From Kappaphycus alvarezii (taxonomy: Eukaryota; Rhodophyta; Florideophyceae; Gigartinales; Solieriaceae): a stretch of DNA of 64,000 nucleotides. Made by a program: the position numbers and the translations under genes. This document shows, piece by piece, positions 7,553-35,711 of this stretch (position 1 is the stretch's first letter; each line of letters starts with the position of its first letter). Below the pieces are notes generated by a model that was not told where the DNA came from, made no database searches, and saw only the letters and a program-made list of their open reading frames with translations. Location of the stretch: the NCBI GenBank assembly GCA_002205965.3, contig NADL03000059.1, positions 429,498-493,497 on the forward strand, written 5' to 3'.

Positions 7553-7751
7553 TCTGGTGACTGGATCGAGGATTTGTGGGGATCGTTGGAGGAAGGGGAA
7601 AGAAAGGCGGGCGAAGCGAAGGCAGAAAAGGGGGGTGTTCTGTACCTATGCAATAATAGTTCAAGAACATTGCATACTGCCAGCACATGATAAGTGCTGT
7701 TGTACAGATGCTGACATACTACAGTAATTGTACGGGGTTCATTGACTGACA

Positions 7752-7802
7752 GGGATAGATCGGATAAATCTTCCAAGAGTAAAACACCCAAACGTTCCTC
7801 CC
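7752..7802 (+). mobile_element. 51-bp LINE-C 3' end with 10-bp target duplication
   Basis: The 51 bp are only the end of the LINE-C 3' UTR (GATCGGATAAATCTTCCAAG, AGTAAAACACCCAAACG, then C/T). TTGACTGACA occurs exactly at 7742-7751 and again at 7803-7812. That direct repeat shows the fragment inserted as an independent event. Confidence 0.85.
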
Positions 7803-7919
7803 TTGACTGACAATTCCGACTACACCGAATCTGCACTCGGTTTTAGTCGCAAAAGCTATTTATAGTGTATGCTTAGAACTTACTCTTTCGATAAGATTTT
7901 CCCTTACAATAAAAGGGGA

Positions 7920-8210
7920 CACAGAATTGGCCAACGACCAACGCCGAGCGCCCGAGAGAGAGCTTAGCATCAGAAAAGCATTCCTTTCGTTTCAAGAGAG
8001 GGCGCCAAGGGGTTGAAGAGCGTGACATCGAAGAAGTCCGTACCTCCATTGCTTGCCATCAGTCAGATGTATCGCCTTATGCGATGGACCCCCTCCCGCC
8101 GTTCGACGGCGGGGTGGCGGGCCGCTTGCTGCAGATCTTGTCCGAGGAGGATGACTTGGCAGTAATGTCGTTTGGTTCTGTGCCTACCGTGCTGAAAGTG
8201 CAGGAGGTGA
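7920..8210 (-). mobile_element. LINE-B-like copy, downstream half (zinc finger end and RLE)
   Basis: Minus-strand translation gives HLLHF, RH, VILLGQDLQQAARHP and NGGTDFFDVTLFNPLAPS, matching LINE-B unit 2 (HLLHC, RH, VTLLGNDLAGAARRP, AGGTDYFDVTFVNPLAPS). The match begins exactly at the copia-1 boundary and continues on the far side at 12857. It fades left of about 7920. The zinc-finger cysteine is Phe here and the RPD motif is degraded. Confidence 0.8.
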
Positions 8211-8760
8211 TGTAAAAATTGACCAAATATTTTAATATCTATCCCGGTGTCCTACAGTGATGCTGAATTGTGGAGCAATATTTTTATTGAGGCCCACAAT
8301 TTATGTTTATTGTGAATCATCAAGGAATAATTCTATCTATTTACACTGGCACTATCTTATGCTGAATTCAGTGTGAAATACTTTTTATGTCTTGCAGTTG
8401 GGTTTTTATGTTATACAGGCTATAATTATTGCATTTATGCTGCCAAAAAATTATTATGTGGATGATTGCCTACCTGGAAAATACTGCAATAATTATTGCT
8501 GAGCCTGAATCATGTCTACCAAAACTATTGTAAGGCTCACCTGATTTTTGTAGCACGTTCACCAAGGTGTAGAGTATAAGTAGTCCTAGGTTGTTAGAAA
8601 TATTTTTTACATCCTCGGGCCGTCGAAATATTCCCCTCGATCAGCTATCATTAAATTTGGTTTTCTATTCATTATTCATTCAAAGTCCAATTGTGGCATT
8701 TATTTATTTATTCAAGTTGGAACTATTTATGTTTTGGATCTACCTATCCCAATTATTTTG
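8211..8760 (+). repeat. Copia-1 5' LTR (550 bp)
   Basis: Starts TGTAAAAATTGACC and ends CCCAATTATTTTGCA; matches 12359-12856. Related LTRs occur at 17490-18048 (-), more distantly at 21112-21670 (+), and in pieces at 37.6-38.2 kb. The gag reading frame begins only a few bases after the LTR, and I could not recognise a tRNA primer-binding site. Confidence 0.9.
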
Positions 8761-11700
8761 CAGTTATGGGACCAGATCGCCCCGAAATTCCTTGGAGGCC
8801 GAAATTTTCATGGTATATTTGCACGGCTCCTTGGATGGATGGTAAAGGACCTCAAGAAAAATATTTTGATGTTGTTCACAAATGGAAATCTGTCCATGAT
8901 TTATTAAAACCATAAAATTCTAATAAGGTTCCTAAGGCAGTACAAGGTTTTGTCTTACAATCACAATTATTTGGACGAGCTCTTGATATTTGTAAGAAAA
9001 TTCCAGACACAGAAATTGAGCCCAAAATGGTGCATTAGCGATTGTTAACGCTATTCATAAGGTGGATCCTCTATCATCTATATCAGATACATTTCAAAAA
9101 TTCTTAGATCTATTGCACACTACTCGTGGTGATATGAGTCTTTCAAAAATTTTGAATCACGGTTTGATGCTCAAATTGCCCGATTTCATTCATCTACTGG
9201 TACTTCGAAATTACCTGAAGCACTGGTATCATTTTTGCTCCTGGCTAATTCCAAAATTGATTCAAACCAGCGAGTATCTATTTTGGCTGCTGCTTCTCCG
9301 AGGCATGAAGAAGCCGATTTGAAAAAGAAAAAAATCCTAGAATCAATCAAATATTCAGAAATATCATCTATTATTCGTGCATGTGATAAACCAAAAAATA
9401 CAAATCAAATATATGGAAATGCTCAAAAATATATCTCTTCAAGTCAATCAAATATTTCATACGGAGAAAAGAAAAATTTCAAGAAAAATAATAAGCAAAG
9501 ATTATCTCCTGAAGACTTTGCTGCCTCAAGGCAAAATCAACTTGTGACCGATGTGGAGAAATTGGCCATTGGGCCTATGAAAAAGATAAATGCAAGAGTG
9601 CTAAAAATTATCATAAAGGTTCATCATCTAGAATGGGAAATGCAGAAAATATCAAAGACAAAAATGATTCTGGTTCTGTAACATTTCATATGGTAAAAAC
9701 GGTGCTTGATTCTCCGTCAAATACGTTATACCCAGGTCGTTACTGATGGAGCACCGTATAGTGGAATGGGTAAATTACGAGCACTTTCGAAATTTATTTT
9801 ACCGGAATGGAATGGAATTCTTGATGAACTTCCTGAATGTATCAAGGACACGCCCTTCTGGCAATACGGAAATGGCGACCACTCAAGCGAAAAAAGAAAA
9901 ATGATCGGTTCAATATTTTTATCAGCTATTTCAGACAATGGAAATCAGGTTAAAATAAGGCATCTAATAATCAGTGGATCATCTCAATGGGTTATTGGAA
10001 GAAATATCACAAGAAAATCAAATATTATTTATGTGACGGACAACTGCATCGAGTTCGAGTCCGCAAATAATTCAATCGATTCTATAACATTGGTGGATCA
10101 TGGTCATCATTGTTATGTACCCGGAAATATATTTATACAATCATCCGAACCTATTGAAAACTCATTTCTATCAGCAATTTGTTCCAACAATATCAATACA
10201 TCAAAAAATATATCTTGGGCTGAAAAGAAGAAACTATTTAATAAGATTCACAAACATTTATGTGGTCACTCATAAACTATTGTTACAAAGAAATTTTATA
10301 TGGGACGATGAATGCAAAAAATATTTATCAAGCATAATTGACTCCTGCAAATTTTGTGATGTCACAAAAAAACCATCTCATCCTCGTGCAGTATCTTTAA
10401 GCTCTATATCTCGCGGATTTAATGAATTGGTTTGTGTGGATCATTTTTTTGTGGAAAACTTGGATTTTTTCACATTATGGACTCAGTTACCAGGTATTCA
10501 ACTGGTTCAATAGTGCCCTCTTTAAGGATGGAAAATTGCATTAATTGTATTGAGACTCTCTGGTTAACACCATTTTGGGACCCTAACAATTTAATGGGAG
10601 ATCAGGCGTTTGACAATGATATTTTAGAAGCTATCTTGAGGAAAGAGGAATTTCTTTTGTCCTATTGGTTCCCGCCGCCACAACAAAAATTATATTGAGT
10701 CAAAACAAAATATTGAGAGACATTTATATCCGTTTAAAAATATCCGATTCTTCTGCAAGTAATACGGTTCGTATTGCTCGAATGTTTCAAATATCGAATG
10801 ATTTATATGGAAATGATGTTGTTTCTTCATACGAGCTTGCCACTGGTCACACTCGACCCATCGATAATTCTGGTCCTCGAAGTCTACCAAATGATTTAAG
10901 AGAAGCTCATAATGAGCTAATAGCCAAGAGGAAATTAAATTTTTAAAATCAAAGTCTGTGACCGATATTCCAATTAATGTTGGCGATATTGTGGAAATTT
11001 TTATTCATCTACCAAATCAGAAAAGAGGATCTTGGTCATCGCCCAAACCAGTATTGAAATTCGACAAAAAATCTCTTATCGTCACAGTACCTGGATCCAA
11101 TGGAAAATTTATACATGCTGCAATTGAAGATGTCCGACATTCCGTTTCATCTAATGAACTAGCATACCAAATTCAAAAGGCAAATGATTTATTGAATCAG
11201 TCTATTGAATATTCTGTGGAAGATATTTCTGATGAAACAAATATTACCGAAGTGAAGAATGTGGGCGAAAACAATTTTGACGATCATTCTGATGATGGTA
11301 ATTTTAACCAAATATGAATACTGATGTCGAAAAATATAATGAATCAGAAAGTGATGGAAATTTATCAGAATCTAAAAACATATTATCTCTCGAACATGTT
11401 CCGATTGAATCTGAACTTAGTTCCCTACACCCTGAAAATTTAATTCATATCCCTATTGATGAAAACGATGGAATTGATGCGCATGAAATTGAGTTGTTAC
11501 CTGGAACGGAATTGAAATCATCTGAACAAAAAGATCTGAGTTTTTATCAAAAGGTTTGGATCTAAAGAATTTTTACTTCATCAAGCATCTGGACTTCCAT
11601 CTCATATTATTTCAAATGCGTACAATACGGAAGAAAATAATTTTCTCACTACTGTTCAAAAATTCATGTTTCAAAAATTCCTCCCGACTCGAATGTAATA

Positions 11701-12358: not shown

Positions 12359-12856
12359 TGTGAAAATAGACCAAATATTTTAATCTCTATCCAGGTGTCC
12401 TACAGTGATGCTGAATTGTGGAGCAATACTTTTGTTGAGGCCCACAATTTATATTTATTGTGAATCATCAAGGAATAATTTTATCTATTTACACTGGCAC
12501 TATTTTATGCTGAATTCAGTGTGAAATAATTTTTATGTCCTCCAGTTGGGTTTCTATGTTATGCGGGATATAATTATTGCATTTGTGCTGCCAAAAAAAT
12601 ATTGTGGGGATGAAAAAATTATTGCAAGGCTCACCTGATTTTTGTAGCAGGTTCACCAAGGTGTAGAGTATAAGTAGTCCTAGGTTGTTAGAAATATTTT
12701 TTACATCCTCGGGCCGTCGAAATATTCCCCTAGATCAGGTATCATTTAATTTGGTTTTCTATTCATTATTCATTCTAAGTCCAATTGTGGCATTTATTTA
12801 TTTACTCAAGTTGGAACTATTTATGTTTTGGATATACCTATCCCAATTATTTTGCA
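12359..12856 (+). repeat. Copia-1 3' LTR (498 bp)
   Basis: Starts TGTGAAAATAGACC right after a purine-rich tract (AAAGGAGAAAGAG) and ends TTTTGCA, followed by the GGTGA target duplicate. Confidence 0.9.
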
Positions 12857-13690
12857 GGTGATCTCCGAAATAGTAGAAGGTTTCGGGACAGTTTCGTCTC
12901 GGGAACGGCACTTTCGAAGGGATCAGCTGGACTCAGAATAAGTATTGAGCCTAACTGCGAATTCACGGTAGTCTGTACTGGTCTTGAAGCCGGGACAAGG
13001 TGCGCAGCACACCCATTCCTTGGCACCTTAGAGGGTTATGGAGGCGCAGAATGCCTGCTTTCTTTGATCCGCATGGAGAATACTTTCCTGCACTGCTATA
13101 TGAATTGCGTGGGTTAGTTTCTTTTGGGATGGTATGGTAAGTGAGCGAAAGGCCCTAAACGGGAGAATCCTTGACTGCACACAGGAGAATGACCAATTCA
13201 TGTGGGCATCGAGAGCATCGTTTTTCTGATAGGAGTGGGCAGAACAACACTACGCAACATGTTGGATGTCGAGCTGGAGGAGAGGAAAGTGACTGCAGCG
13301 ATGTTCTTGGCGGAATTATATCTGATCCCAAGGGAGGGCCGCTCCGCATCCAGTGATTGCACTGGAAGTTGGAGCTCACGGAAGACCTCTGATTTCATGA
13401 CCCCTTGGCAGTGTGCGGACACAACGCTCCATCGTATCATCGAAAATGGCAGCGCCCTAGACGGTGGACGACCTCGGGACTACGCACAGTAGGTGGCCGA
13501 GTTGGCAGAACCCAAACCAATTTCGAATCATCTGGAACACTATTTGCGTATCCTCTAAGTCGATGGTTGCCTCGAGGAACGGTTCATCGGGCTGGACGTG
13601 GGTAGTGAAAGGTCTGTTGGTGAAGGTCTCTGAGCCGACTGGAGCGTTGAGGACCATTGTGGCAGCAATATACTCTAAACAGTGACGAAG
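12857..13690 (-). mobile_element. LINE-B-like copy, upstream half (RT thumb to zinc finger)
   Basis: Minus-strand frames 13457-13657 and 13198-13440 read VLNAPVGSETF, IRNWFGFCQLGHLL and FRELQLPVQSL, matching LINE-B (VLNAPIGSQTF, LRNCFGVCKVGYLL, FKELQLPIKAL). Below that, WVCCAPCPGF matches WVYCAPCPGL and ends at YYFGDH on the copia-1 edge. The other half continues at 8210. The RT palm is missing, so the copy is 5'-truncated near 13690, and it is frameshifted. Confidence 0.8.
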
Positions 13691-14989: not shown

Positions 14990-15284
14990 TAACAATAACT
15001 ATCGGGCTACGCTGAAGAGACTTCAGAGAACTGAGGTTCTAAGGAATAAACAAGAATCAGGCGCAAGTCGCTTGCACCCGGCATTTTACAGTAAGCGCGT
15101 GCAGGCACTAGGCCTATATAGCAGTGCGTGCGAGACATAGATAAAGGCACATACAGTAAAGCATATACAAATGATACAAATACATTGCGTTGCGACCATT
15201 CAACTAAGGTGATTCATTGCTTGTCACAACTGTTGACGACCAGCAGACGTTCGCCACGAAATGTCAGGCAGAGTCAGTTATCAT
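14990..15284 (-). repeat. Copia-2 LTR, left (3' LTR of the minus-strand element)
   Basis: Shares TAACAATAACTATCGGGC at its left edge and AGTTATCAT at its right edge with 20493-20787. The outer limits are placed where the two copies stop matching. Confidence 0.85.
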
Positions 15285-17489
15285 GAATATTCGTCTTATG
15301 TCCTTTAGCCATAGTTCTTCTCTGAATAATTCGTCTCGGACATTGTTTCAAGTGGGTCATTCAATCGTCCGTTGTATATCGTGAGCTGCCGCATTTCGGT
15401 AACAGAGCTGTCTTTCTTTGTGAAGGTATCAGAGAGGTTGATTTTTCCAGGGATCCAGATAATTCTTTCAAAGTTCTCTCTCTAGAACTCAAATCGTGTA
15501 GATGCAACGTCCCCACAAATAGATCGATCAATAGAGTTCCGTTGAGTATAGAAAGACGTGAATAGGTTTTGGAGTCCACATAAAGATGAAAACGAGCATC
15601 AAGTGCATATATTTCAGAGTAGGCGTGTGATACACATTTGGCTTCATGAAGTGCTTCACCTGAAGCAATTATTTCGGCTGCCGGTAGAATTTTTACCAGT
15701 CTCTTCGATTTATGAGAGATCCATGAAACCGGGTGGTAGAGAGAGTGATTAGCAAATGGACCAGCGAGAAGCCCAGATAGCACACCAAGCTGACCGTTCT
15801 CGTCTCCTTCGGATGCATTAGAAAAAACCAGAACGGAAAGCTCATTTTTTAAGTTATCAGTTGGACGGGGGTATGTAATCGGGGTCCTAAGCTTTTTATG
15901 CTGACGGAAAATTTTTCGTCGCTCAATCAGGTGACATGTCCTTGTTTCAGAAGCCTTCTGTTGCAAATAGGATGTGTAGAAAAAGCAGAAAGGGGAAGCA
16001 GCTGTCCAAATACAGCCTATGGAGCTACTGGAAGAGGCAAAAAAGGACTTCCAAATCTCATTGAGTGGCTGGTCAAACTCCTTACCACGAGTGCGAGACA
16101 TCAGGTACTCGGTCATGGCATTCAGCTTGTCGTCAGCATTAGTAGACACAGTGAGATCTTCATTCTGTACAGTGTTGATACCGAACAATCCCAGTCGACC
16201 TGGTCCGTTCGTTACAGTACCCAGTTTGAGATATTTGTCAAATTTCTCAATGAAACTCTGGGCATTATCAATGAACCCAGCTGCTTTGATATGTTCAACA
16301 ATTTTTACTCCAATGAGCACCAGTTTTCCGTTCCCATGCTTGTAGAAGAGTTGTGGAACCTGCTGGCATTGTGTCAAGCCAAGGTCAGAAAAGAATATGT
16401 CAGACTGCACTTGCCATTTGGCGTTAGCATTTATTAAGCCATATGCAGCATTTAACAGTAGCCAAAAGTGTTTACATCTCATTCGACTTTACTTATGCGG
16501 CTTAACGTACACACTGCGAACAGCAGTGCCAGTATGTAGTAAGGCAGTTTTCATGTCAGCCTTGTAAAGCTTCCAGCCAAACAAGGATGCAATAGATTCA
16601 ACGGTACGAAGAACCCTTGGTGGACATGTCGTACAGTCAGATGAAAGTAAATTCTTCAGATCACCTCCGTTTCTGTATGGTCCGATTCGTTCTTTCAGTC
16701 TGAGAGGTGGGTAATTATTCTGTTTAGCTTTGTACAGTACATGGATTTTGATAACGTTTGCGCCATGGGGTACAACACTTTCTGTAACAGGGCGAACTGT
16801 CTTCAAAAATGTCTCTTTTTCGATTTGACGCGATTTCACTGGCTGTAACTGCTCAAATCCTTGTTGGTGGTGTCGCATAAAGGGTTTGTTTCCAAAGTGG
16901 TCCCACATTCTCTGTAGCTCTTGGGGTTCTTGGTCAGTATTTGTGACAAAGGACGAGTTTGCACAGACATTTTGTGTTCTCATGGTGCATTTCTTGTTCG
17001 TCTAGGGTAAGACGTTCCTTTTGACCGTCTTCATAAAGTAGAGTAACGCAGCCGTCGCGATGCAATGCCTTTACAGTTCTGCCACAGTATTTCTTGTCAT
17101 CTCGCGAGTATACCATTACAAGATCGTCACGACTCACATTATATTCATTGGGGTTCTCATGTGCATTTCCTTTCGTTTGTTGACCAGAGAAGTCCGCATC
17201 TTCCTGCAAGCACTCGCAGGAGCTGGTGAGAGGCTGTCGTTGTCCACTTGTTTCCCATCATTCTCATTCGTCAAGTGGACCATATCGTAAATGTTATCGT
17301 CAACAGAATCAATTGTTGTCTGTACGGTGCTTGCAAAATATTCGTCGGATAGTGCAAGAAGGATATCTTCAAATGAAGCAATGGCAGTCTTACCGTTTTT
17401 TGCAGGTATAAGAACAGTTCGAGCCTGTGCGTCAACTTCCAGTACAGTTTTTAGGTTGGACAGTTTTCCTTTCTTGCTCAGACCAGTAG

Positions 17490-18048
17490 TGCAAAATAAT
17501 TGGGATAGGTAGATCCAAATGATAATAAATAGTTCCAACTTGAATAAATAAATAAAAGCCGCAGTTGGACTTAGAATGAATTATGAATAATGAATAGAAA
17601 ACCAAATTTAATGATAGGTGATCGAGGGGAATATTTCGATAGCCCAAGGATGTAAAAATATTTCTAACAACCTAGACAACTTATATTCTACACCAGGTGA
17701 ACCTGCTACAAAAATCAGGTGAGCCGTTCAATAATTTTGGTAGACATAATTCAGGCTCAGCAATAATTATTGCAGTATTTTTCAGGTAAGCAATCATCCA
17801 CATAATAATTTTTGGTGGAATGAATTCAATAATTATAGCCTGTATAATATAAAAACCCAACTGCAGGACATAAAAATTATTTCACACTGAATTCAGCATA
17901 AAATAGCGCCAGTGTATAAAGATAAAATTCTTTCTTGATGATTCACAATAAATATAAATAGTGGGCCGCAATAAAAAATATTTTTCCACAATTCAGCATC
18001 ACTGTAGGACACCGGGATAGAGATTAAAATATTTGGTCAATTTTCACA
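17490..18048 (-). repeat. Solo LTR of the copia-1 family, inside copia-2
   Basis: 559 bp, reading (minus strand) TGTGAAAATTGACC to CCCAATTATTTTGCA. It is flanked by AGTAG at 17485-17489 and AGTAT at 18049-18053, a probable 5-bp target duplication with one change. Copia-2 coding similarity resumes on both sides. A solo LTR is the usual product of recombination between the two LTRs of one element. Confidence 0.85.
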
Positions 18049-19995
18049 AGTATTGGAATAAACTTCGACCATATCGCCAGTTTCAAATTGTGGCTCATCT
18101 GTGGACTTGGACTTGAGTATAAGTGCCAATTTGCGCTTAGCTTAAAGTCTGTTGTGTGGATACACAATTTTATCAGGGATGACGGCGATAGATTCATCAC
18201 TTAGAGGCTTGTTGTAGTCTTTTCCTAGCTCAAAAGAAGACATGACATCGTTTCCATATAAATAATTAGACATAGAAAGAGCACACAAGGAAAGAAGCTC
18301 TGTAGCCGTGTGAGGTTCAGCAATGCATAATTTAAGGACGAGAGTGCTGATTACACCTTGCTTGCTTTCAAGTGTATTCCTACTGTGGCAACGTGGTAGT
18401 ATGGGACGAAATGAAATTTTCCTTTCGTCGAGGAACTTACAAAACTGGCCCTTCCAAAAGGCCTCATCACCTTGTACTGATACAGGGAGCCAGAACTGTG
18501 AGGTCTAACAACCTTCGAAGCCCATTACCGCCTGGTCTACAGAGGTAGATCTGACAAAAAATGCAGCAGAAAACCTTGCAGTGACATCCATACAATGAAA
18601 CAAGCAGACAGAGTCGAGGTAAAAATGATCAGCTCAGATAATTTCATTAAGTCCGCGCGATATGGGTGAGATCAATACTTTTCTAGTAGGTTGTGGAGGG
18701 AAAGCGGAACGGTATGAGACACATTTTTCTATCAGGGGCGATACTTAGTCTGCCACAGCGTCACTCCACATTCCGTTGCGCTAAAAAAGTAATTTCATAT
18801 CAGGCAGGTTAGCATGGCCGCAGAAATGCTTGGGCACTTTGTCCACAATGGCTGTGACTTGATTCCAGGGTATATCTCTTGAGAAGTTTCCATTCAGGCA
18901 AGAAAGAGCGGATGTTCTGCGTGTCTTGTTACCGAAGCGCGACATAGGTAGGTAGCCCAAAAAGACTTGATTGGCCATGGTAAATTGGACGACCGTACCC
19001 TCAGCATGAAACTGCAGGGCATTGCAGTAAATGTGGAGAATGTTGAATTCAATCGATACATTCTTTCCGATAACCCATTGACTACAGTCATCCAATACAA
19101 GGTGACGAGTTAGCACCTTTCTTACGCTGTTACGTACAGCAGGAATCACAACAGACCCAAGAATACACTGAGGAGCACTAGAGTGGTCACCGACGCCATA
19201 TTGCAAGTGAGTATGCCCATTGAGTGACAGTGGAATAAGTTCAAATTCAAAACCATCGTCTTGTCCAATGTGGTCTGTCAAAAGACGAAGCTCAACATTT
19301 CAAACGGCTGAGAATGGGGCACCGTCATCCACTAGTGGCCCAATAGCTTGGTCCACGAAAAATTCACAGGACCCACTAGATTCATTTACCGAGCAGTTGT
19401 TGGTGGGAAGGTCGACCATATTAAAAGAAACAGTCTTTCTTTTGACATTTGAGCTTTTGTTACCGGAACTCGGTGAGGCATCACCAGAACCAATTTCTGT
19501 GCTAAACTCCTCAGTAGTATCAAAGCACTTCACATTGGATTTAAGGGAACCATAACTGTTCTGTTTGTCTTTCTAATGTACAAATTTATTACAAACGTGA
19601 AAGGGATGAAGTTTCAAGGCAGAATTTGAAGGGCGACGAAAGCCACTACAACGACCAGGTTTGAAATGGGTCACAGTACCTGCAGCGCTAGTAGATAGTG
19701 CCGTGGCCGAAGGTTTAGTCGATGCTTTTTCGCAATGTTTCACGACAGATGCCAGTTGTTTGTACATCAACGCTAATAGGTAGTCATCATTGGAGGATTG
19801 ATCCAAAAAAAAAGTTTCATGCGGAGCAACAGCTGCCAGCGCGGAGAATCGTGGAGAATGTTCGACACTGGCGTTACTTAGAAGCATCAAGGCAGTTATG
19901 CATTGAGGTATTTTGACAGTACTCGAAAAAGAATTGATTTTTGTAACCACCTCAGAGAAAGGAGTTTCAAACGTCTTCAATGACTCATTCTGTAA

Positions 19996-20113
19996 GGGGG
20001 GAACGTTTGGGTGTTTTACTCTTGAAATTTATATCCGATCAATCACATAGTTTTCCAGACAACCATAATCGACCCAAAAAGGGAATAACGACACAGTAAT
20101 GGGGAAGGAACTA
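19996..20113 (-). mobile_element. 118-bp LINE-C 3' end inside copia-2 gag
   Basis: Minus-strand LINE-C 3' UTR only; at its left edge the plus strand reads GGGGGGAACGTTTGGGTG, the complement of the terminal block. Exact CATTCTGTAA repeats at 19986-19995 and 20114-20123 mark a 10-bp target duplication. Confidence 0.9.
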
Positions 20114-20492
20114 CATTCTGTAAGCGACATGTATTTAACAGTGAGTCAAACCCATCAAATGCTTCGCTGATAACAGATGAAAAGTCAAGGTGATATACAG
20201 TATCAACAATCAATATGACACCATCTTCACTCTTGAGCTGCTCATTCGCCAGTTCCGTAATGAGGTCTTCAGCTTGACCATAGCGCTGGGACTTGAACAC
20301 AATTGCATTAATTTGAGGGGGAAGCTTGTTTGAATTGGTGTCCGGAGGAGAATCATGGTATTCCTTCTAAATATATACGGCAGTCTCAAAACTTTCTTGG
20401 TTTCCTTTGCCGTCTTTCCATGATGGAAGTTTCGCGTCCCAAGCAACCCGAGGGCGGTTTGGTAGCGAATTAGTTGGGAATGGGCCCTTACC

Positions 20493-20787
20493 TAACAATA
20501 ACTATCGGGCTAAGCTGAAGAGACTTCAGAGAACTGAGGTTCTAAGGAATAAACAAGAATCAGGCGCAAGTCGCTTGCACTCGGCATTTTACAGTAAGCG
20601 CGTGCAGGCACTAGGCCTATATAGCAGTGCGTGCGAGGCATAGATAAAAGCACATACAGTAAAGCATATACAAATGATACAAATACATTGCGTTGCGACC
20701 ATTCAACTAAGGTGATTCATTGCTTGTCACAACTGTTGACGACCAGCAGACGTTCGCCATGAAATGTCAGGCAGAGTTAGTTATCAT
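20493..20787 (-). repeat. Copia-2 LTR, right (5' LTR of the minus-strand element)
   Basis: Same length as the left copy; about six mismatches by eye. Confidence 0.85.
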
Positions 20788-20974
20788 CTATACAAGACTA
20801 GCACGCTATTTATGTTAGTATAACCATCAATATCTGCAGCTGCTATTATCACAATCATATTTACAAAGATAAACATGAGTTGTACAGTTTTCGATGGTTT
20901 CCTACTTAAAGGTCGTCACAAACTGAGAAGTTTTCACTTGCTCTGAACGCTTGCTAGGCAGATCACTGTAACAT
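20788..20974. other. Spacer, nothing recognised
   Basis: Short AT-rich sequence between copia-2 and the next LINE-A fragment. Confidence 0.35.
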
Positions 20975-21111: not shown

Positions 21112-21670
21112 TGTGAAAATTGGAAAAACATTTAGAGATATTGGAAAACTATTTAATTCGTTTTCCTTTTCGAATACAGGGATGAAAACTGTGGAACAGT
21201 TTTTTTGTCAAGAGTCAACATTTTCTATTTATTCTGGATCATAGATAATAATTTAATCTATTTTTACTGGCCCATTTTTACACTTCATTACTCGTGAAAA
21301 TATTCTTATGTCTTTGAGTCTGTTTTTATATTCTCCAGTTATAGTTACTGGAACTATATTGCCGACAAATTATTATTTAGATTAATGCTGACTTAGATAA
21401 TTATTCTATAACTATTATTGAGCATGAATTTGGTCTACAATAGTTATTATACTACTGGAGTCATCTTTGTAGCTTTCTACTTTGATCTGCGGTAAAGATA
21501 GTGTTAAGGCTTGAGATAATTTAAGCAAGCCTTGAGCCATCGAATTATCCCCATCGACCGATAAATACTGGTTTCCTTTTGTTATTATTCTCAGAACTAT
21601 TCTGGTAATTTACTATTCATTTAATACGAATTATCTGTTTTGGATCTACACATACCACTTAATTTTTACA
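21112..21670 (+). repeat. Old solo LTR, distantly of the copia-1 type
   Basis: 559 bp from TGTGAAAATTGG to TTAATTTTTACA. It shares the TTTTGGATCTAC block near its 3' end and the overall layout with copia-1 LTRs, but is much more diverged. Flanks CCGTA (21107-21111) and CCCTA (21671-21675) look like an aged 5-bp target duplication. It interrupts LINE-A coding sequence. Confidence 0.7.
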
Positions 21671-21905: not shown

Positions 21906-23540
21906 GTCCACTAGATGAGATTGGCTAAGGCCAGAACCTACGGCAAAGGATCCAGGTTTAAACCCCCTGACAGCTGTAAGGACGTCTCCTTCAGTGATGT
22001 TGCGGAACGGGATGTAGTTTCTCCCGGAGAAAAATCCCTCGTCAGGTTGGGCTCGGTGTCTGGGAATGTTTGTCGAGCAGGGTCTGGATGACGCCAGGGG
22101 TTCATTGGAGGACACCACGCGAATCTGGATCTTGGGCAGCCTTACCAAAATGCCCTGTTGTTGAGGCTGTCAGCGAACTAGTGGATCGCTGCATAGCTGC
22201 TTTCCATAGTTCTTGGAACTATCCCTGGTTCCGTAGTGCTATCTGCTCTCTCATTTTTTCCGCAAGAGACTGCTGACGGTCCTGGGTGGGTTGGTGTTGG
22301 AGTGGGACAGGTGGGAAGGGTTTGGGTGTTTTGCTTTTGGAAGATGGACAGTGTCGGGAGCATGACAGCGGGGAACCGGAACCTTTTCGCGAAAGCGTGC
22401 GAAGCGTGCGGGCCTCCGGCTTGGAAAGCTTGTACGGCCTCACTTATAGCCCTTTCATACTTTCCGGCCAAGCAGCAGCGGAGCATAGTGGGTATGGCGC
22501 CATGATTGGGGAGCAATTGGTGCAACTTTGTGCCATCGAGGGTACCCCCTGTACGGATAGTTCCGAGGTGTTGGGGGTGTACGGCTGAATTCCGGGGCCA
22601 TGCAGGGATTTGAGGGCTGGCGCTGTTGGGGATCGGGTTGCCGTGCGACCACCAGTCAAGCTTCGCTCCTAGGTTCATTTACTCATGGACATACTATATA
22701 CTCATGACTTCTAGTAAACCTGGTTGAGGTCTTTAAGCCGTACAGTACATTCCACTAACACCACGAGGGGCTTGTACTAAACCACAGAGCATCTCGGCCT
22801 GGAGTACAAGGCATTCATCTCAGCCCTGAGTGATTCCACTCAGTCGGATCGCTGGAAATTATTTCCAGAATTCAACTCGAATATCTGTGGGCCTAATCTA
22901 GGGAATAAACCCCGATGGTCTAAGTCAATGGGTCTATTTACCTTAGTCCCAAGTGTAACAGAGTAACACACGATTGAGGTACCCATTCACACTTGCAAAT
23001 TTAACAACTCAACAACTGATAGCTGTATTGATGTCAATTTTAACAGGCGTCGGTGGGGCAGGGATGTCTTGGAATCAGACAGCTGAGGCTGTATATTCCT
23101 CTGGAGAGCCATCGGGGGGAAGGTCCGGGCGCGACGCACGATGCGTGGTATGTTGTTGTGGCACTTCCTGCAGTAATTGGGTCTCGGGGATAAGTTTGTA
23201 GAGTGTGGGTGCTGTACGCGCTGAGCATTTGGGGCACTGGGAGTAGAAAGATAGGTGTAGAGCGCGGTATCGTTCGGACCCGAAACCTTGGAGCGGGTAT
23301 ATTGGTTGTTGCAGCCGCAGTACCAGTAGCCGGTTTTGGGTAGTTCCCGATTCACAGTCGCGGCGCTTGGGCGTCCCGAGATTTGAGTCCTTGGTGTGTG
23401 CGGGGCGCAGATGAGCCAGAAGCTGTGCCACTGTTTGGATCCTTGGTTTTTACTGGGGGCAGATTGGACAGGGCCCGGGGAGGGGTAGAGGAGGCCATCC
23501 CGACTCCGGGCCTGTCATAGGGCGGGAAGAGAACCATTTG
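21905..23540 (-). mobile_element. LINE-B relative, N-terminal half
   Basis: Minus strand. Near 23075-23431 there is a LLAHLRPAHT segment and a CPKC pair, matching the N-terminal zinc-finger-like region of LINE-B (LLAHLRTTHT, CPQC). At 22178-22678 a segment resembles the LINE-B RRAMRLAREGAYGKA block. At 21870-22148 there is ITEGDVLTAVRGFKPGS, matching ITKDEVLRAVRSFKPGS. It is frameshifted and lacks the RT palm. About 300 bp (22680-22985) in the middle match nothing I can name and may be an insertion. Confidence 0.65.
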
Positions 23541-24010: not shown

Positions 24011-24439
24011 TCTATGTGACCCTGTGGCGTCAGCAAAAACACGGACCGTTTAATAACTTGAGTTTCCCCGCGGAGCTCCATCGCTGCGAATTTCGAGTGG
24101 AGGATGAAGGATGAGCAGGACGGGTCTTGCTTTCCTCGCCGGTGCCGGGGAGGAAGCTAGCAGTTTATCAACAGGCGTGGTGTGGAACTTGGTGGGAATC
24201 TGGCGAGTCGGGGATGAGAACCGTAGCGTGGGTAGGTCCACTAATCAGCAAAATAAAGCACCCAAAATTCCGCCCTCTTCCAAACAGTAAAACACCGCAA
24301 GTGTTTTACTTTGCAAACAGATTTATTTATTTGAGAGATTGGAAGGTGCGGTCGACGGCAGTTCGGTGGCCTGTGAAGCACTCGAAAGAAGATGTCCGAA
24401 ACAATTGGATATCCCTTCACAGTAAAAACGGGAGTATTG
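24011..24439. other. Non-coding; LINE-C-like tail and fold-back
   Basis: Mostly unrecognised. Near 24255-24310, LINE-C tail-like words (AAAGCACCCAAAATTCCGCC; CTTCCAAACAGTAAAACACC) are followed at once by the reverse complement (GTGTTTTAC), giving a 9-bp hairpin at 24287-24309. Confidence 0.4.
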
Positions 24440-25115: not shown

Positions 25116-25154
25116 AATTGGAATCGGTACCATTATTTCCGCCTACTCCCATCT

Positions 25155-25200
25155 GAGGGAAAAGGTTTGGGTGATTCACTATTGGAAGATATATCTGATC
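25155..25200 (-). mobile_element. Tiny LINE-C 3' end
   Basis: Plus strand reads AGGGAAAAGGTTTGGGTG then ATTGGAAGATATATCTGATC, the complement of the LINE-C terminus. It abuts the LINE-A copy at 25205. Confidence 0.6.
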
Positions 25201-25204
25201 TCTC

Positions 25205-25680
25205 ACGTCTCCCAGCTGATGTGGCGCCTGTCTCACTTGGAGGTTAAGCACAAAGCTGGTAACGAAGTCGCGAAGTTCCTGCTGAGGGAAGGAACCAAGA
25301 CGAGGAGCAGCGGGTGAAGCGAGGCATCAGAACCCCTGGCCCTCCTCGCCCAGGCTCCGTGGATATTTGTACCGAGATGGGAGAGGAGGATATCGTCTTG
25401 CTGCCAGTAATCTCTGTAATGACGACTTTTCTCGAGCTCTGCGAGTTTCGCGGTAACGCCCGCAGCAAATATAATGGGAAAGATGCGAGAGCCAGCGGAA
25501 TGATGAGCGGCAGTATCGCCGACGGTGATATCACTTGCATGAAAACCGTAGGCACCCGGAATGTTGATATCCATTCGTAATGAACGGGATTTCCAATAGG
25601 TAGAGGAATTGAGATCTGGGAAGGAGAGAGAATGTTCGACAAGAACGACGATGCCAACTTCCTTAGGACCACGAGAAACT
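25205..25680 (-). mobile_element. LINE-A RLE-region copy, diverged
   Basis: Minus-strand frame 25233-25574 reads MDINIPGAYGFHASDITV, aligning with MDIYIPAAYGLHSTDIAV of LINE-A; the catalytic D-V-T is changed to GDT. A second frame (25244-25672) overlaps. Broken. Confidence 0.7.
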
Positions 25681-25812: not shown

Positions 25813-25873
25813 AACTTGTATAATAGTGTGCAAGTGCATGAAATATTGGGGCAGGCGTTGGTGATACTCACTT

Positions 25874-25998
25874 TTAGGGGAAAGGTTTGGTTGTTTTACT
25901 CTTGGAAGATATATCCGATCCTCACTCTAGTGTCTGGAAAACAATGGGGTGTATCGGATATATCTTCCAAGAGTAAAACACCCAAATCTTTCCCTCTA
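25874..25998. mobile_element. Two LINE-C 3' ends in head-on inverted arrangement
   Basis: 25874-25925 is a minus-strand end and 25937-25998 a plus-strand end, together a near-palindrome around CTCACTCTAGTGTCT. Imperfect flanking repeats fit two separate insertions: CTCACTTTTA against CTCACTCTAG for the first, TCTAGTGTCT against TCTAGTATTT for the second. Confidence 0.7.
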
Positions 25999-26700
25999 GT
26001 ATTTGTCCGCGATAGTACTGTCCTTATATGAGGCACACTTTGTCCCCGCATGAGGGCAAACCTCTTTATCCTACAAGAATGCACAGCAACTACAAACTTT
26101 TTTTGGTATCCGTAAATATTTACTAAAAAAATGCTCCAATCCAAACCTTTCACCTCTAATACTCTTGAACCAATTTAGTAACGCTTCCTAGTTACCTATG
26201 TTGACTATTTGTACAAATTTTGTGACGCATTCTGGAATACTGGATTGAATATACTGTATCTTCCGACAGTAGAAACAACCAATACTTCCACTTCTGGAAC
26301 ACAGGGTAACCTATTTTTCAGTCATTAAATCACTCCAATTTACCCCCCCTACAAAAGTGTAGAGGTAAGGCCAGCAAGCAAAAGAACCGCAAACTGGGTT
26401 ACTATTAATGAGGAGTGCCGCTGTGTGGAGGAATAGTTTACACATTCGAGACCGTTCCCATCGCACAACTAGCGACGGTTCTGACAAGCTCCTTGACGAC
26501 GGCGACCGCCGTTGGAGCCTTAAGAACCTAGCAGCAAAGCAGATTTAGTCATGACAATTTTCTAGAATTCGTAAATTGTAGGTAATGAGCCACACATATA
26601 AGACGCATCCGTTTGCAAATTTGTACTCGTGTGGACATTCTTTTAGCAGTAATCTCAAAACGGTAAAATATTTTGCAAGGTCTAATTGATAGATAATAAA
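25999..26700. other. Mostly unrecognised non-coding sequence
   Basis: Contains diverged tail-like words: ATCTTCCGACAGTAG, AACAACCAATACTTCC near 26258-26300, and AAATCACTCCAATTTACCCC near 26326. These are probably very old LINE 3' ends. No coding signal. Confidence 0.35.
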
Positions 26701-26701
26701 T

Positions 26702-26825
26702 TACTTGGGGAAAATGTGGGGTGATTTAGTATTTGAAAAATTACTTTAATGATTAGGACTTTCTACAAAGTGGGGGAATTTTGGGTTATTTTAATTTACT
26801 GAAGATGTGGTCAGTCCCATCTTAA
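26702..26825 (-). mobile_element. Two short LINE 3' ends (D type, then E type)
   Basis: 26704-26750 reads GGGGAAAATGTGGGGTGATT then TAGTATTTGAAAAATTA (LINE-D terminus, minus strand). 26776-26825 reads GGGGGAATTTTGGGTTATTT then TAATTTACTGAAGATGTGG (same terminus as at 6537). They lie in the same orientation 30 bp apart. Confidence 0.6.
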
Positions 26826-27289: not shown

Positions 27290-27501
27290 CACTTTTGGAA
27301 GATATGTCCGATGTATCCCATAGTTTTCCAGACAACAACAATCGACCCAAAAAGGTATGCAGAGACAGTAATGGGGAAGGAACTACGCTCCCTAAAAGGG
27401 TACCTTCAGGCCAGCCATCTAGCAGGCCGCATTGGACATGACGGCTGCTGCAGCGTGCCTTTGCATCAAAACCCCCCGAACCTTTCCGAGAAAGGTTCGA
27501 T
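27290..27501 (-). mobile_element. LINE-C C-terminus and 3' UTR ending in a fold-back
   Basis: Minus strand encodes the MQRHAAAAVMSNAACLMAGL-type end block and the LINE-C UTR. At its 5' (right) end the sequence GAACCTTTC is followed after three bases by GAAAGGTTC (27479-27501): the first half is LINE-C sequence, the second its reverse complement. This is a short 5' inversion. Confidence 0.7.
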
Positions 27502-27589: not shown

Positions 27590-27758
27590 CCGTGTAAATG
27601 AGGGGTTAATTTACTGTGGTAGATATGTGGGTTGGTATCCAGTAAATTTGCACCGGAGCGTAGATATCGTATCATTGCCGAGCCAATTGCGAAATCGTAC
27701 AATGCGTCGAAAGTTGTCGATGGCACTCCAATCTACGACCTTCTGGTAGATTGGAGTG
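27590..27758 (-). mobile_element. LINE-B 3' UTR end with 5' fold-back
   Basis: Complement of the last roughly 150 bp of LINE-B (plus strand TTAATTTACTGTGGTAGATA, then GGGTTGGTATCCAGTAAATT). At the right, CACTCCAATCTAC (27724-27736) is followed after nine bases by GTAGATTGGAGTG (27746-27758). The second arm and the preceding CCTTCTG are LINE-B sense sequence of the same segment. Confidence 0.75.
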
Positions 27759-28530
27759 AACCAAAATACGTGGGTGACTTCGGCCCAAAAACAGGTCGTT
27801 ACTGTTCTTGGGTTACGCAATAAAACTACAATAAATAACCGCTGTTGAGAGGAAAAACCAAGAAGCAGATGCATCCACAGAGGAGAAACTTCTGGGGTCT
27901 GGTGCCTGCTGATTTGCCCCTTGCCTGCTCGCTAATCCATTTTCATCTCCTCGCGACAATCGTTCTGTTGGTACGGAAACAGTCCTTTCTGTAGGAGAAC
28001 GCACCTCTCCACAAACTTCTGTCTTCCCTCTCTCCATGATTCACCAAAAGCGACTATCCCCATCAATTTTCTTTTAGGAACAAAATCATGGAACGGATTT
28101 TTCCGAAGATTCCAAATTCACTGTGCAACTCCATTTCTATTTTCTTCTTTGAGAATTTTGGTCCTCCTTTTTCAGAACAGGAATCTTTCGAGTCGTGATC
28201 CACTTTGTCCTCCAAATTGAGTTCCGATATTTTATCAAGCTGATTTTTAGTTATTGTCCTAATCGCATGCAAATTCACAGCTGTAGCATTGCTTCACATT
28301 TTTATTTCCTCCAAGGCCGTGAGAATTTTCGAATACGTTGCCCTATTTAAAGTCCGAAATCGACATTGTTGAGGCAACCCCCCCCGCGACCAACTACCCC
28401 ATCGGCTCACCACTATTTTTTCCTTCAATATAACCAACTACCGAATTTCCCTCACCATCACTAAGTGATCCCGAGGCCGCCGTCCACTCAACGCTCTGCC
28501 CTTGATGGCAAATAATCCAACCAACTACAA
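27759..28530 (-). other. Unrecognised; two weak minus-strand frames
   Basis: Frames 27813-28037 (Ser/Arg/Glu-rich) and 28063-28278 (Lys/Glu-rich, KNQLDKISELNLEDKVD) look like disordered or coiled-coil protein and may be one broken gene. Plus-strand CCAACTAC words at about 28388, 28432 and 28519 precede the acidic ORF. No family assigned. Confidence 0.25.
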
Positions 28531-29560: not shown

Positions 29561-30346
29561 TCCCCTCATGACTTATTTGGCTCGGAATACAATCGGGAAT
29601 GATAGAGGTATGACAGGCGGCTATAAGGTACGGAGTGGGAGTTGATCGCAGTAACATTGTACCGTTGTGGTTGCTGGACGAATTTGGGGTCATAAATGAA
29701 GATGTCAAGACCGTGACGGCTGGAGGCTAGGAGATGTGCATCCTGTAGGAATTTCCATTCGCAGGTATGGAGTACCGCGATATGGAGGCTTGTGACCTTT
29801 GAGAAGATTCGGCCATTGGCCATATTGTGGGGAACGGACCCATATATGCGTAGTCAAACAGCAGCATGATGACCAGAGATGTCGGGCGTCAGAGATTAGT
29901 GGCGTTTGTAGTTAACGAAGAATTCGGAGCGCTCAACACCTGAGAAAGGCGGAGGACAGAGCCGGAAGGGAATGGGCGTGTGCCATACTTCCCGAGCGAC
30001 AACAGTTCGGAGGAAACTTTGTGGTACAATGGAAATCGGACGTGTGACACTTGGGGTAGAGATGGATTCCAAGCGCTTGTGGAACCGTTAAAGCGGGGTA
30101 TGCGGGATAGCGGAAGAGAGCAGAGAGTACCCTGTCTATTCCATGAGAAGGTCCATAGCCAGGTGGTAACAATTTCGTGGAAAAAATTATTTGGAAGCGA
30201 TATGTAAAGCCCAGTGGTCCTTCGCTTGGAGTTGAGGCGGAAGGCCCTGAAGGTTGGCGTGCTGGAGTGAAGGTTGTATTATCGGAAGGAAGAGGACGTG
30301 TATACCAGAAGGCCTTGGATCTAGGAGAGGCTGGAAAGCAAGGAAG
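29561..30346 (-). mobile_element. LINE-F C-terminal region, broken copy
   Basis: Minus-strand frame 29566-29823 contains a GLDIFIYD segment then QRYNVTAI, aligning with LINE-F at 31861-32415 (RLYIYIDD then QGYDVTVI): RLE core with the second Asp changed to Asn. 29933-30345 continues upstream in other frames. Broken. Confidence 0.65.
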
Positions 30347-30457
30347 GGAAGAATCTTTGGGTGATTTGCTTTTGGAATATATATCCGATGTATCCCATAG
30401 TTTTCCCGACAACCGCAATAGACCCAAAAAGAAGTGCAGACACAGGAATGTGGGAGG
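30347..30457 (-). mobile_element. 111-bp LINE-C 3' end with 11-bp target duplication
   Basis: AAGCAAGGAAG occurs at 30336-30346 and 30458-30468. Between them lies only LINE-C 3' UTR, minus strand. It is inserted in or beside LINE-F. Confidence 0.8.
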
Positions 30458-30769
30458 AAGCAAGGAAGCGACGTAGCATGCATCTGCTAGAAGGGTAACA
30501 CATGGTTTTAATGTACTGGAACCGATAGATTGACTGGAGCCCAGTCAAAATGCATAGCTAATAGCAGGTCAGAGAGACTTTTTTGTAATTTTTGAAAGCA
30601 TGTGAGGAATGCAGCATTACGAAACTTTGCGGTGCGACTTCCGGTGATTGATATCAATGGCAATCTGTTGTTGCATCAGCGGGGTGAGAATATACCTAAA
30701 AGTGCCTCCTCGCCTGTCTCGACCGGGCAATATAGCCACAGGGTCACGGAGGCGCCGACCTGTCGCCAT

Positions 30770-30865: not shown

Positions 30866-30867
30866 TC

Positions 30868-30945: not shown

Positions 30946-30967
30946 GACGACCCTCAAATTATCCATC

Positions 30968-31348
30968 GCGTCGCGAAATGCAAAGCAGAGAAGATATCAA
31001 TCCTTTACCGCGACCTCCACCAGGGTAGGCTCGTGCCTGTGCCAATCTCCACTCTTGGAGGGTGGCACCCAGATGCATCTGCAGTGCTAAATGAAGTGGC
31101 AAGGAACATGGCCGTGAGGGCACTGGAGACGTACGGAAAGGTTCGGGGGGTTTGGATACAAAGGCACGTCGCAGCAGCCGTCATGTCCAATGCGGCCTGC
31201 TTGATAGCTGGCCTGAAGTAAGCATTTTAGGGGGCGCAGTTCCCCATTACTGTGTCGGTATACCCTTTTGAGTCGATTGTGGTTGTCTGGAAAACCATGG
31301 GAAAGATCGGATATATCTTCCAAGAGAAAAACACCCAAACCGTTTCCT
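30968..31348 (+). mobile_element. LINE-C C-terminus with complete 3' UTR
   Basis: Frame 31033-31218 reads PVPISTLGGWHPDASAVLNE and ends VMSNAACLIAGLK, matching LINE-B (PVPISTLGGWHPAAFSVVKE; TSNAACLVAGL). The upstream HRVAKCKAEK segment matches the LINE-B AAHAEKQRK block. After the stop comes a roughly 120-bp UTR ending AAAAACACCCAAACCG and TTTCC. This is the best example linking the tiny LINE-C repeats to a parent protein. Confidence 0.8.
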
Positions 31349-31439
31349 TCCATTATCCATCTGACACCGAACATAATACTTCCGCTACACCATAACTTCG
31401 TAGTCAGGGTGGTGGAACCTCCCAAATATGGAATTCAAA

Positions 31440-32592: not shown

Positions 32593-32649
32593 TCGAACGA
32601 TGACCATCTTTAGTGATGTTGGGCAATGGAGACATACGGGACAGTTCGA

Positions 32650-32879: not shown

Positions 32880-33845
32880 CCTGATATGCCCCAAAGTTTC
32901 ATTGACCCTTCAAGATAGGATAATTGCATTCCCAGCATCCACAAACAGAGAAAACAGAAAAGATGCTTACCCCTCTGCAGTCTATGCTACAGAAAAGAGA
33001 CTTTCTTTTTTTCGTAGTCCCGGAACATTCTCCCGGGTTGGCTGGAAAACCATGGGATAGATCGGGTATATCTTCCAAGAGTAAAACACCCAAACGTTCC
33101 CCCTTCTCCCGGGTGGAGGGTTAGTTCAAGTACGCGTTCAAAAGACCCAGCGGGATAGATTTCGAAAATCCTGCATACGGTGGATGTATTCGCACATCCA
33201 AGAGTCGACCGTTAACTCTCTGAGCTTATCCTCCTCGCTCTTGTCCCTTACCTCATCCTCCAAACAACCAACAACAGATAATTTTTACGTAACCATTAAT
33301 GTCAGGAAGCAACAAAGAGTCAAAGTATACAAAAGATTCTTCCCGGAGGTTAATGGCCACGATTGCTCATTGGGCATTACGGATGTTCATAAAGACCATG
33401 ATCAGATCTAGATTCACTATATGGCACCCTGTCATTCACAGCCTTCGTGTTACGGAATTTTATTCATATTCTGACTGAACAAGTCTGGTTAAGAAAAATT
33501 TGTTCAAAACTTGGCTCCGCGGCCTTGAATACCACGCGAACTAGTTTTTGCTCTCCTTCTTAGGACTTTGGGGCTCTAGATTCTTTCTTAGATTTACGGT
33601 ACAGCGCGGCGCAGGCTCTTACTTTCCCCTTCGAGTCTGGAGTCTCCGCAATCTTTCCTTCTTTGGAGCGGCTTTCAAAGTAATTTCTATTTCTTCGGTA
33701 AGCAATTCCAAAAATGAATTTATAACTTCATCACTCATCCATCTAGTCCGACGGAGGCAGTGAGATTTGGCCTTCTCCAGGGTGATTTTTTGCTTCTGAA
33801 CGTGAGTATCATCACAACGGACTTTGGTAACTTCCAAAAGTTCTA
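32880..33845 (-). pseudogene. Ulp1/SENP-like (C48) cysteine protease fossil
   Basis: Minus-strand frame 33619-33837 contains RRTRWMSDEVINSFLELL, close to the W-L-N-D-E-V-I-N box that opens Ulp1/SENP protease domains. Further on (about 33313-33370) another frame reads AIVAINLREESFVYFDSLL, like the strand after the catalytic His that ends in a Y-D-S-L box. The His-Trp expected before it is not intact. A possible SIDC segment near 32985 could be the Cys box. These enzymes cleave SUMO-like tags in host cells, and the domain also occurs in some DNA transposons. Broken by frame changes and a LINE-C insertion. Confidence 0.45.
33039..33103 (+). mobile_element. 65-bp LINE-C 3' end with 11-bp target duplication
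   Basis: TTCTCCCGGGT occurs at 33028-33038 and 33104-33114. The insert is only the LINE-C terminus. Confidence 0.9.
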
Positions 33846-33855
33846 TTGCTCTCTT

Positions 33856-33917
33856 ACAAATTTACTGGATACCAACCCACATACCTACCGCAGTAAATTA
33901 AGCCCCCATTTACACTT
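33856..33917 (+). mobile_element. 62-bp LINE-B 3' end with 10-bp target duplication
   Basis: TTGCTCTCTT occurs at 33846-33855 and 33918-33927. The insert matches the last bases of LINE-B (CTGGATACCAACCCACAT, ACAGTAAATTAA, CATTTACAC). Thus the tiny-insertion pattern is not restricted to LINE-C. Confidence 0.9.
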
Positions 33918-33929
33918 TTGCTCTCTTTT

Positions 33930-34370
33930 ATTGGGCCTTTTAAATGTACACTCCAGTACTACTTTAAAGTCACTTCCTTCGGTCGTCATCGACTTTTTTC
34001 GGGACCGATGAGGTAATCAAAAGTCAGAAGATCTTGTTTAAATGCCTGTGGTCTTCTTTGTGTGACTAGGCATACTCTGCACTGGAGGAAAGGGTACTTT
34101 CCTGGCGCTGGGTTCGTTAGAACTATGTCGTACCTTCACTTCTGACTCATTCAAGTTCTTATTTTCTCATTGTTAATAATTTTTGCCGGTTAGAGGTCTG
34201 GCGCGGATGATGTCCCCTCCGCCCTGCATCCGAATTGATCCGGGACACGTCGCTTCATTTTGACAGCGTCAAATTCGTCCTTATAGGACCTGATTCTTTT
34301 ACCTTTATTGTCTAGTCACTGACTTGGAGATTGGGATACTCTCGAAATGCTCAATAATATCCTCTCGAAA
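33930..34370. other. No gene recognised
   Basis: Includes a short direct repeat of about 27 bp (TATCCTCTCGAAATGCTCAA, twice near 34340-34385). Otherwise no signal. Confidence 0.35.
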
Positions 34371-34373
34371 TGC

Positions 34374-34940: not shown

Positions 34941-34946
34941 GTGTCG

Positions 34947-35400
34947 TAAGGTGGTGGTAGTGGTGGTAAATCTTTACGAGTCGAGCCTGCTTTACTTAGA
35001 GACTAAACGCAAAACGGGTCACGAAGTCGCGGAGCTCCTGTTGAGGGGAGGAAGCAGCAAAGGAAGCAAAGAGGCGGAAAAACACTTCCCGTCGTCGCCC
35101 AAGGCGCCCTAGATATCAATGCTGACGGGGGAGAGGAGGATATCATTTTGCTCGCAGCAAGTACCGTAACGAAGATTTTTCTCGCACTCTGCGAGTGTCT
35201 TGGCAGCGCCTGCAGTAACCATGATTGGCGAGATGTGGCGGCGAGTGGTGAAACCAGGGGGGTAGAAAAGGGGTAGGGAAGTGGCAAACGGGGGTGGGAA
35301 GGGGAGAAGCCGTAAACTTGGGTCTTAGCAAGGTCGAGCTGGATCCCGAGTGGACCTCCTTCAAGCGGCATGAAACGGATGGCGGCAGCTTGGGACCGAA
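34947..35400 (-). mobile_element. LINE-A copy with internal junction and GGT/CCA tail
   Basis: Tail (plus strand GGTGGTGGTAGTGGTGGTAA) at 34950-34970. Minus strand encodes the C-terminus and part of the RLE region. At about 35240 it jumps directly to the RT-end block (MPLEGGPLGIQLDLAKTQVY). The sequence between these blocks in longer copies is missing. Confidence 0.7.
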
Positions 35401-35518
35401 GAAGAAAAATGCTGCTACCGGGAGTCCTCGAGAAGTACGTAGAGCTTGCCCATAATAGCGACTCAAAGGCAGAGAGGAATCGATAGGAAGCAGTGGTAAA
35501 AATTCAAAATTGTAGAGG

Positions 35519-35586
35519 TAAAAGGTTTGGTTGTTTTACTCTTAGGAGTTATATCAGATCTTTCCCATATTTTTCCAGACAACCAA
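35519..35586 (-). mobile_element. 68-bp LINE-C 3' end with 11-bp target duplication
   Basis: AATTGTAGAGG at 35508-35518 and AATTGTACAGG at 35587-35597, one mismatch. Only LINE-C terminus between. Confidence 0.85.
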
Positions 35587-35711
35587 ATTGTACAGGGCAG
35601 ACAGGTTGAGTGAGGGTAGTAAAACATTTGACAGGGAAAGGGCATGGAGTCGATCCAGGAGAAAACCGCAGGTTGCGGCGACTGGGATATTAAGAGCGCG
35701 ATACACACGAA

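Follow-up and report, generated by a model that had tools for sequence, protein, structure and literature searches.

What leaves only the last few dozen base pairs of a retrotransposon between two copies of a short direct repeat? The question is raised by a 64-kb stretch (64,000 nt) of the genome of the red alga Kappaphycus alvarezii (contig NADL03000059.1, positions 429,498 to 493,497), here called the window, to which our census was confined. The window holds several families of long interspersed nuclear elements (LINEs), labelled A2, B, C, D and F. The original prediction had described seven isolated LINE 3' ends with target duplications, and all seven repeat pairs are present, with the second AATTGTASAGG at 35586 instead of 35587. 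Measured by repeat boundaries, the inserts are 51, 117, 111, 65 and 67 bp long for LINE-C, 62 bp for LINE-B and 168 bp for LINE-D. The observation of short, repeat-bounded inserts of LINE 3' ends holds. We regard them as probable products of abortive target-primed reverse transcription of several related LINE families, and the ordinary mechanism of 5'-truncated LINE insertion is met here at an unusual extreme.

Are the flanking repeats more than chance matches? A profile of the terminal block scored at least 9.4 bits at 27 places in the window (tandem copies counted as one), against a maximum of 7.5 bits in 10 shuffled windows. Artificially shortened C ends were detected in 13 of 13 cases at 28 bp and in 10 of 13 at 24 bp by a profile that was itself derived from the same 13 copies. 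One place without a 3' end (27291) was excluded before the flank test. For the remaining 26 copies the match between a copy's own left and right flanks was compared with 650 swapped pairs, each copy being combined with the 25 others. Ten of the 26 scored at least 8 with their own flanks (0.24 expected from swapped flanks) and five scored at least 10 (0.16 expected). The swapped-pair maximum was 14 and three swapped pairs stood at 11; no single copy exceeds every control pair, so that the evidence rests in the set and not in individual copies. One of the ten (44290) was not counted as its match falls in the end of a neighbouring element, which leaves nine clean copies, and 24276 (P 0.012) was set aside as, by eye, a likely chance palindrome. 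Four C copies (25876, 25931, 44234 and 44420) with repeats of 7-8 bp reached P values of 0.012-0.032 over 26 tests and were accepted as weak. A test with a longer left flank covered 16 copies, seven of them also in the 26-copy test. With this flank the LINE-B insert at 33848 was convincing (P 0.008), as was the family F copy at 43904 (P 0.008), which had been unconvincing with the short flank. The accepted inserts comprise 13 of the 26 copies from the first test and two of the 16 from the second.

In total 15 repeat-bounded inserts were accepted: 11 of LINE-C, two of LINE-D, one of LINE-B and one of family F (Table 1). Their lengths, set by the repeat boundaries and in some cases uncertain by up to 3 bp where repeat and element end share letters, are 31, 44, 46, 46, 51, 52, 62, 62, 65, 67, 109, 111, 117, 168 and 384 bp. 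The median is 62 bp; ten of the 15 are at most 67 bp long and 13 at most 117 bp. Duplications measure 9-12 bp in 11 inserts, seven of them exact and four with one mismatch (35518, 25157, 44578 and 43905), and 7-8 bp in the four weak ones. Eight accepted inserts were absent from the original prediction (25157, 44237, 25875, 25932, 44421, 26707, 43905 and 30968), and among these are both extremes, the shortest from LINE-D (31 bp, 26707-26737) and the longest from LINE-C (384 bp, 30968-31351). At 25867-26000 two opposite LINE-C ends are separated by ~11 bp; both have a weak repeat of their own, and the second seems to have inserted into the duplication of the first.

Table 1. Positions of the LINE-derived inserts, one copy that was not accepted, and the longest LINE frame of the window
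Feature	Position	Strand	Flanking repeats and remarks
LINE-C 3' end, 51 bp	7752..7802	+	TTGACTGACA 7742-7751 / 7803-7812
LINE-C 3' end, 117 bp	19997..20113	-	11-bp repeats 19986-19996 / 20114-20124
LINE-C 3' end, 52 bp	25157..25208	-	repeats 25146-25156 / 25209-25219, one mismatch
LINE-C 3' end, 44-46 bp	25875..25920	-	imperfect 8-bp repeats 25867-25874 / 25921-25928; weak; missed in one repeat search
LINE-C 3' end, 62 bp	25932..25993	+	7-bp CTCTAGT 25925-25931 / 25994-26000; weak; adjoins 25875..25920
LINE-C 3' end, 111 bp	30347..30457	-	11-bp repeats 30336-30346 / 30458-30468
LINE-C copy, 384 bp, into ORF end	30968..31351	+	ATTATCCATC 30958-30967 / 31352-31361
LINE-C 3' end, 65 bp	33039..33103	+	TTCTCCCGGGT 33028-33038 / 33104-33114
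LINE-C 3' end, 67 bp	35518..35584	-	repeats 35507-35517 / 35585-35595, one mismatch
LINE-C 3' end, 46 bp	44237..44282	+	7-bp CTTTGAC 44230-44236 / 44283-44289; weak
LINE-C 3' end, 41-45 bp	44421..44464	-	T-rich 7-bp repeats 44414-44420 / 44465-44471; weak; alternative pairing gives 70 bp
LINE-D 3' end, 31 bp	26707..26737	-	AAGTAATTT 26698-26706 / 26738-26746
LINE-D 3' end, 168 bp	44578..44745	-	repeats 44566-44577 / 44746-44757, one mismatch
Family F 3' end, 106-109 bp	43905..44013	-	repeats 43895-43904 / 44014-44023, one mismatch
LINE-B 3' end, 62 bp	33856..33917	+	TTGCTCTCTT 33846-33855 / 33918-33927
LINE-C-like terminal block, ~33-35 bp	22313..22345	-	6-bp repeat only; not accepted
LINE-B open frame, 862 codons stop to stop	58150..60735	+	reverse transcriptase, then Cys/His and PD-x-D motifs (by eye); element 3' end ~60879

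Which elements supplied these ends? The alignment of families C, D and F contains a common 3'-terminal block of ~45 nt that ends in a run of C. Copies matched by the C-end profile have a common 3' end and stop at different points on the 5' side, and longer copies extend into the C-terminus of a LINE open reading frame (ORF): in the 384-bp C copy, 31021-31227 aligns with residues 793-861, the C-terminal part of the LINE-B frame. In 14 of 16 C copies the C-run is followed by T (the boundary was set by eye, and two of the 14 have no clear C-run), so that the RNA has a terminal U or else T is preferred at the target. LINE-B is the longest relative in the window, and its 862 codons are counted from stop to stop. 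Two of seven window proteins have Pfam matches to a reverse transcriptase (RT) and five have none. The LINE-B frame matches RVT_1 (E 2.8e-10) and the window looks eukaryotic; the second frame has a weak RVT_2 match (0.042) below the Pfam cut-off. The spliced-leader sequence of dinoflagellates does not occur in the window. Among solved structures in the PDB the LINE-B RT is nearest to R2 proteins (8.8e-9, 1.4e-8 and 5.4e-5; LINE-1 ORF2 protein 0.34), as judged by similarity search. The Cys/His and PD-x-D motifs that follow the RT were read by eye, and we take them to be those of restriction-like endonucleases; a structure model of LINE-B (mean predicted local distance difference test score, pLDDT, of 40) was too poor for testing them. 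The B terminal profile matched four places, two of them in tandem copies. At 27592-27760 a LINE-B 3' end (145 bp) is preceded by ~20 bp of LINE-B that by eye is inverted, as twin priming would leave it, and the longer-flank test found no convincing flanking repeat there. A further terminal block, G, at 44024-44052 and ~24240-24275 resembles those of C, D and F by eye and ends in a C-run; at 44024-44052 neither flank test found convincing repeats.

We favour abortive target-primed reverse transcription because of the duplications, the common 3' ends, the varied 5' ends, the block of families C, D and F and the long copies that reach the ORF end. In such a process the LINE protein would bind the conserved 3'-terminal block of its own RNA (~45 nt with the C-rich end), and the LINE endonuclease would nick one strand with little site preference. 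The 3' end released in this way would act as the primer for copying, which would begin at the very 3' terminus of the RNA and mostly end within ~30-120 nt. The second strand would then be cut ~9-12 bp away, and repair would join the stub and leave the duplication behind. The binding of the protein to the block, the reason for the early stop and the sequence of the steps are inferences. As in 5'-truncated LINEs, a common 3' end goes together with a variable 5' end, duplications flank the copies (15 copies), and longer relatives encode an RT. The original prediction had proposed an RT that stops early, and this part of it agrees with the ends, with the 9-12 bp duplications seen at 11 of the 15 inserts and with the longer copies; the uniformity across LINE families that it also assumed did not stand. 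The very low processivity in vivo that it named is one way to early stops, and the cause may also lie in fragmentary templates or in an obstacle where the enzyme binds its RNA.

Might the templates themselves have been short? If LINE RNA was degraded except for a 3' end shielded by bound protein, the remaining piece could have been copied fully, with nothing aborted. Several breakpoints do lie close to the upstream edge of the conserved block, as shielding would have it, whereas others lie inside the block (31 bp) or far outside it (109-384 bp), and we think this origin unlikely. A stop at a fixed point is conceivable too: the enzyme, held on the RNA at the upstream edge of the block, might copy ~45-50 nt and release, so that abortive initiation would be the main outcome and long copies rare escapes. 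We put this forward tentatively, as a possibility with the odds against it. If it were true, a discrete class of 44-53 bp should be expected genome-wide.

Such a class would also be expected by those who see in the terminal block an independent short element, similar to a short interspersed nuclear element (SINE), with its own source gene and mobilised by the LINE enzyme. Indeed, of the 16 C termini seven measure 44-53 bp, including two that lack convincing repeats, and the largest count in a 10-nt window among the 16 had Monte Carlo P values of 0.023 (exponential null) and 0.073 (lognormal null). With the 11 repeat-bounded C copies the values were 0.061 and 0.138, and with the weak 33-bp copy added 0.114 and 0.260. 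Without that copy (22313) P ranged over 0.012-0.139, and adding it weakened the result, in a test that was framed post hoc with the lengths already known and whose inputs differ by up to 4 bp from the repeat-bounded lengths for ambiguous ends, or follow homology limits (30854 and 24533). Depending on the copies counted and the null, P of 0.02-0.26 is no more than a hint of a discrete 44-53 bp class. For copies without repeats the apparent end at 44-53 bp may arise only because other LINE families share just the terminal block.

Other observations speak more directly against a short element of its own. The inserts do not have a common 5' end, and the window holds neither an Rfam family at gathering score nor a tRNA gene, so that a source gene of this kind was not found in it. 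The terminal core was compared in 15 C copies (22313 left out; the short copies 35714 and 39493 lack convincing repeats): divergence was 0.172 within the seven short copies, 0.177 within the eight longer ones and 0.175 between the groups (permutation P 0.475), and four of the seven short copies have a long copy as their nearest relative. Among the 11 repeat-bounded C inserts the average difference is 16%, whereas the halves of their repeats differ at only 4 of 110 positions (3.6%), a comparison biased by the selection of copies for recognisable repeats; the five C inserts with exact repeats of 10-11 bp diverge mutually by 14%. As far as aligned copies can tell, this pattern speaks for many distinct source LINEs and not for a single short master of recent date. 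The second proposal of the original prediction, a SINE-like amplification of the terminal block alone, hence fits badly with the varied 5' ends, the ungrouped short copies and the divergence of inserts as against repeat halves, and we hold it to be very improbable.

Could the inserts have reached their sites in a different manner altogether? Tiny DNA transposons, resembling miniature inverted-repeat transposable elements or introners, could leave target duplications of ~10 bp, and Mutator-type transposons likewise make duplications of 9-11 bp. However, only the 3' end is common to the copies, inspection of the alignments by eye reveals no terminal inverted repeats, and the longer copies contain the end of a LINE ORF; we give this origin hardly any credence. 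The inserts could also be remnants of longer insertions that were trimmed afterwards, through deletion or nested insertion. Broken repeats are densely mixed in the window, and the copy at 27291-27488 lacks its 3' end, as trimming would leave it. In the accepted cases, however, both halves of the repeat abut the short insert, and later deletion is unlikely to have done this so often. Some copies that lack repeats may have arisen by deletion or nesting; as an account of the inserts as a whole we consider it scarcely conceivable.

Abortive target-primed reverse transcription remains our preferred reading, and several results weigh against it. A convincing repeat was absent from 11 of the 26 terminal-block copies in the first flank test, and four accepted inserts rest on weak repeats. 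No full-length LINE-C lies in the window, and its source RNA is something we infer. A hairpin that might cause the stop, just upstream of the 44-53 bp breakpoints, seemed promising on visual inspection and was not used as evidence. RNAalifold gave nine copies a consensus of -1.05 kcal/mol with five pairs elsewhere and no compensatory pair, and with the six longer copies an equally good fold was reached by 71 of 300 column shuffles; individual copies do fold, but the alignment does not exceed its column shuffles. Finally, the A2 copies are not ultra-short, so that ultra-short insertion finds no support as a feature of these LINEs in general. Their homology lengths lie between ~206 bp and 1.3 kb, and convincing repeats are absent from all seven copies tested (lowest P 0.083); two of them (1169 and 47009) are 97.6% identical and may not be separate insertions. 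The A2 terminal profile matched eight places in the window, three in tandem copies and one a 26-bp stretch that ends the 34957 copy, and no separate A2 micro-insert was noticed. The bias towards near-minimal ends, called uniform in the original prediction, was overstated: inserts span 31-384 bp and LINE-A2 is without the bias. The short inserts come from families B, C, D and F, not from every LINE of the window.

How do the inserts compare with known systems, as described in the cited passages of published work? Exact-pattern scans of viral and genome contigs and a protein scan of viral contigs gave no matches, and among the matches listed for the open-licence literature no title or abstract opening pointed to LINE inserts of this size. 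Among the closest are R2-type LINEs, which LINE-B resembles in its RT and, as read by eye, in the motifs behind it. Truncated R2 copies lacking their 5' part are known, and the cockroach also has R2-like elements scattered in its genome, whereas R2 proper uses one insertion site in the 28S rRNA gene (PMC7650587). As far as this account of cockroach R2 goes, it describes no comparable class of insert lengths (PMC7650587). Our inserts differ from R2 proper by their copy-specific flanks, and the window has no Rfam rRNA match at gathering score. CR1 elements carry an apurinic-type endonuclease. Truncation at the 5' end is ascribed to premature termination of the RT, and in Anolis CR1 and L2 it is weighted to the 3' end (PMC5389967), as it is here. 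The conserved 3' UTR (untranslated region) of CR1/L2 has been suggested as an RT recognition site (PMC2612034), and these elements lack a poly(A) tail (PMC2734521). Most copies of chicken CR1 are shorter than 1,000 bp (PMC2612034), which, going by that description, is unlike the 30-120 bp seen here. In LINEs of the stringent type, such as UnaL2 and ZfL2, a short 3' tail is recognised by the LINE protein, and zebrafish LINE proteins bind a stem-loop in this tail (PMC4176376); the stem-loop is established there, whereas none is demonstrable in our alignments. Short internally deleted elements (SIDEs) such as Persaeus also derive from LINEs (PMC6740152), but they are internally deleted whereas our copies are 3' ends alone. 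Utopia non-LTR (long terminal repeat) retrotransposons, found also in an amoeba and in oomycetes, belong to the restriction-like endonuclease class (PMC4640811), which would be shared with LINE-B going by its motifs; a difference is that our window has no Rfam family at gathering score.

If inserts of this kind proved to be genome-wide, they would form a natural record of LINE RT stopping right after its start. Annotation that ignores matches of 30-60 bp would then miss most insertion events of such families, and the step from start to elongation in target-primed reverse transcription would become testable from genome sequence alone.

Other repeats were noted in the window. An inverted repeat of 83% identity (1-1169 and 45073-46242) carries an open frame of 335 codons that is open at the window edge, and Pfam gave no match for the frames at either place. 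A direct repeat of 300 bp, 97% identical, lies at 14990-15289 and 20493-20792. A family with self-inverted stretches (37612-38162, 8211-8763, 12359-12857, 17483-18048 and 21140-21665) is perhaps a fold-back transposon. A tandem array with a unit of 8.15 kb occupies 44567-64000 and is 99.4% identical over 11.3 kb. At its internal junctions (~52724 and ~60878) the LINE-B 3' end is joined to the flank of a LINE-D end, and the array could be due to a LINE-B-linked duplication or to later unequal exchange.

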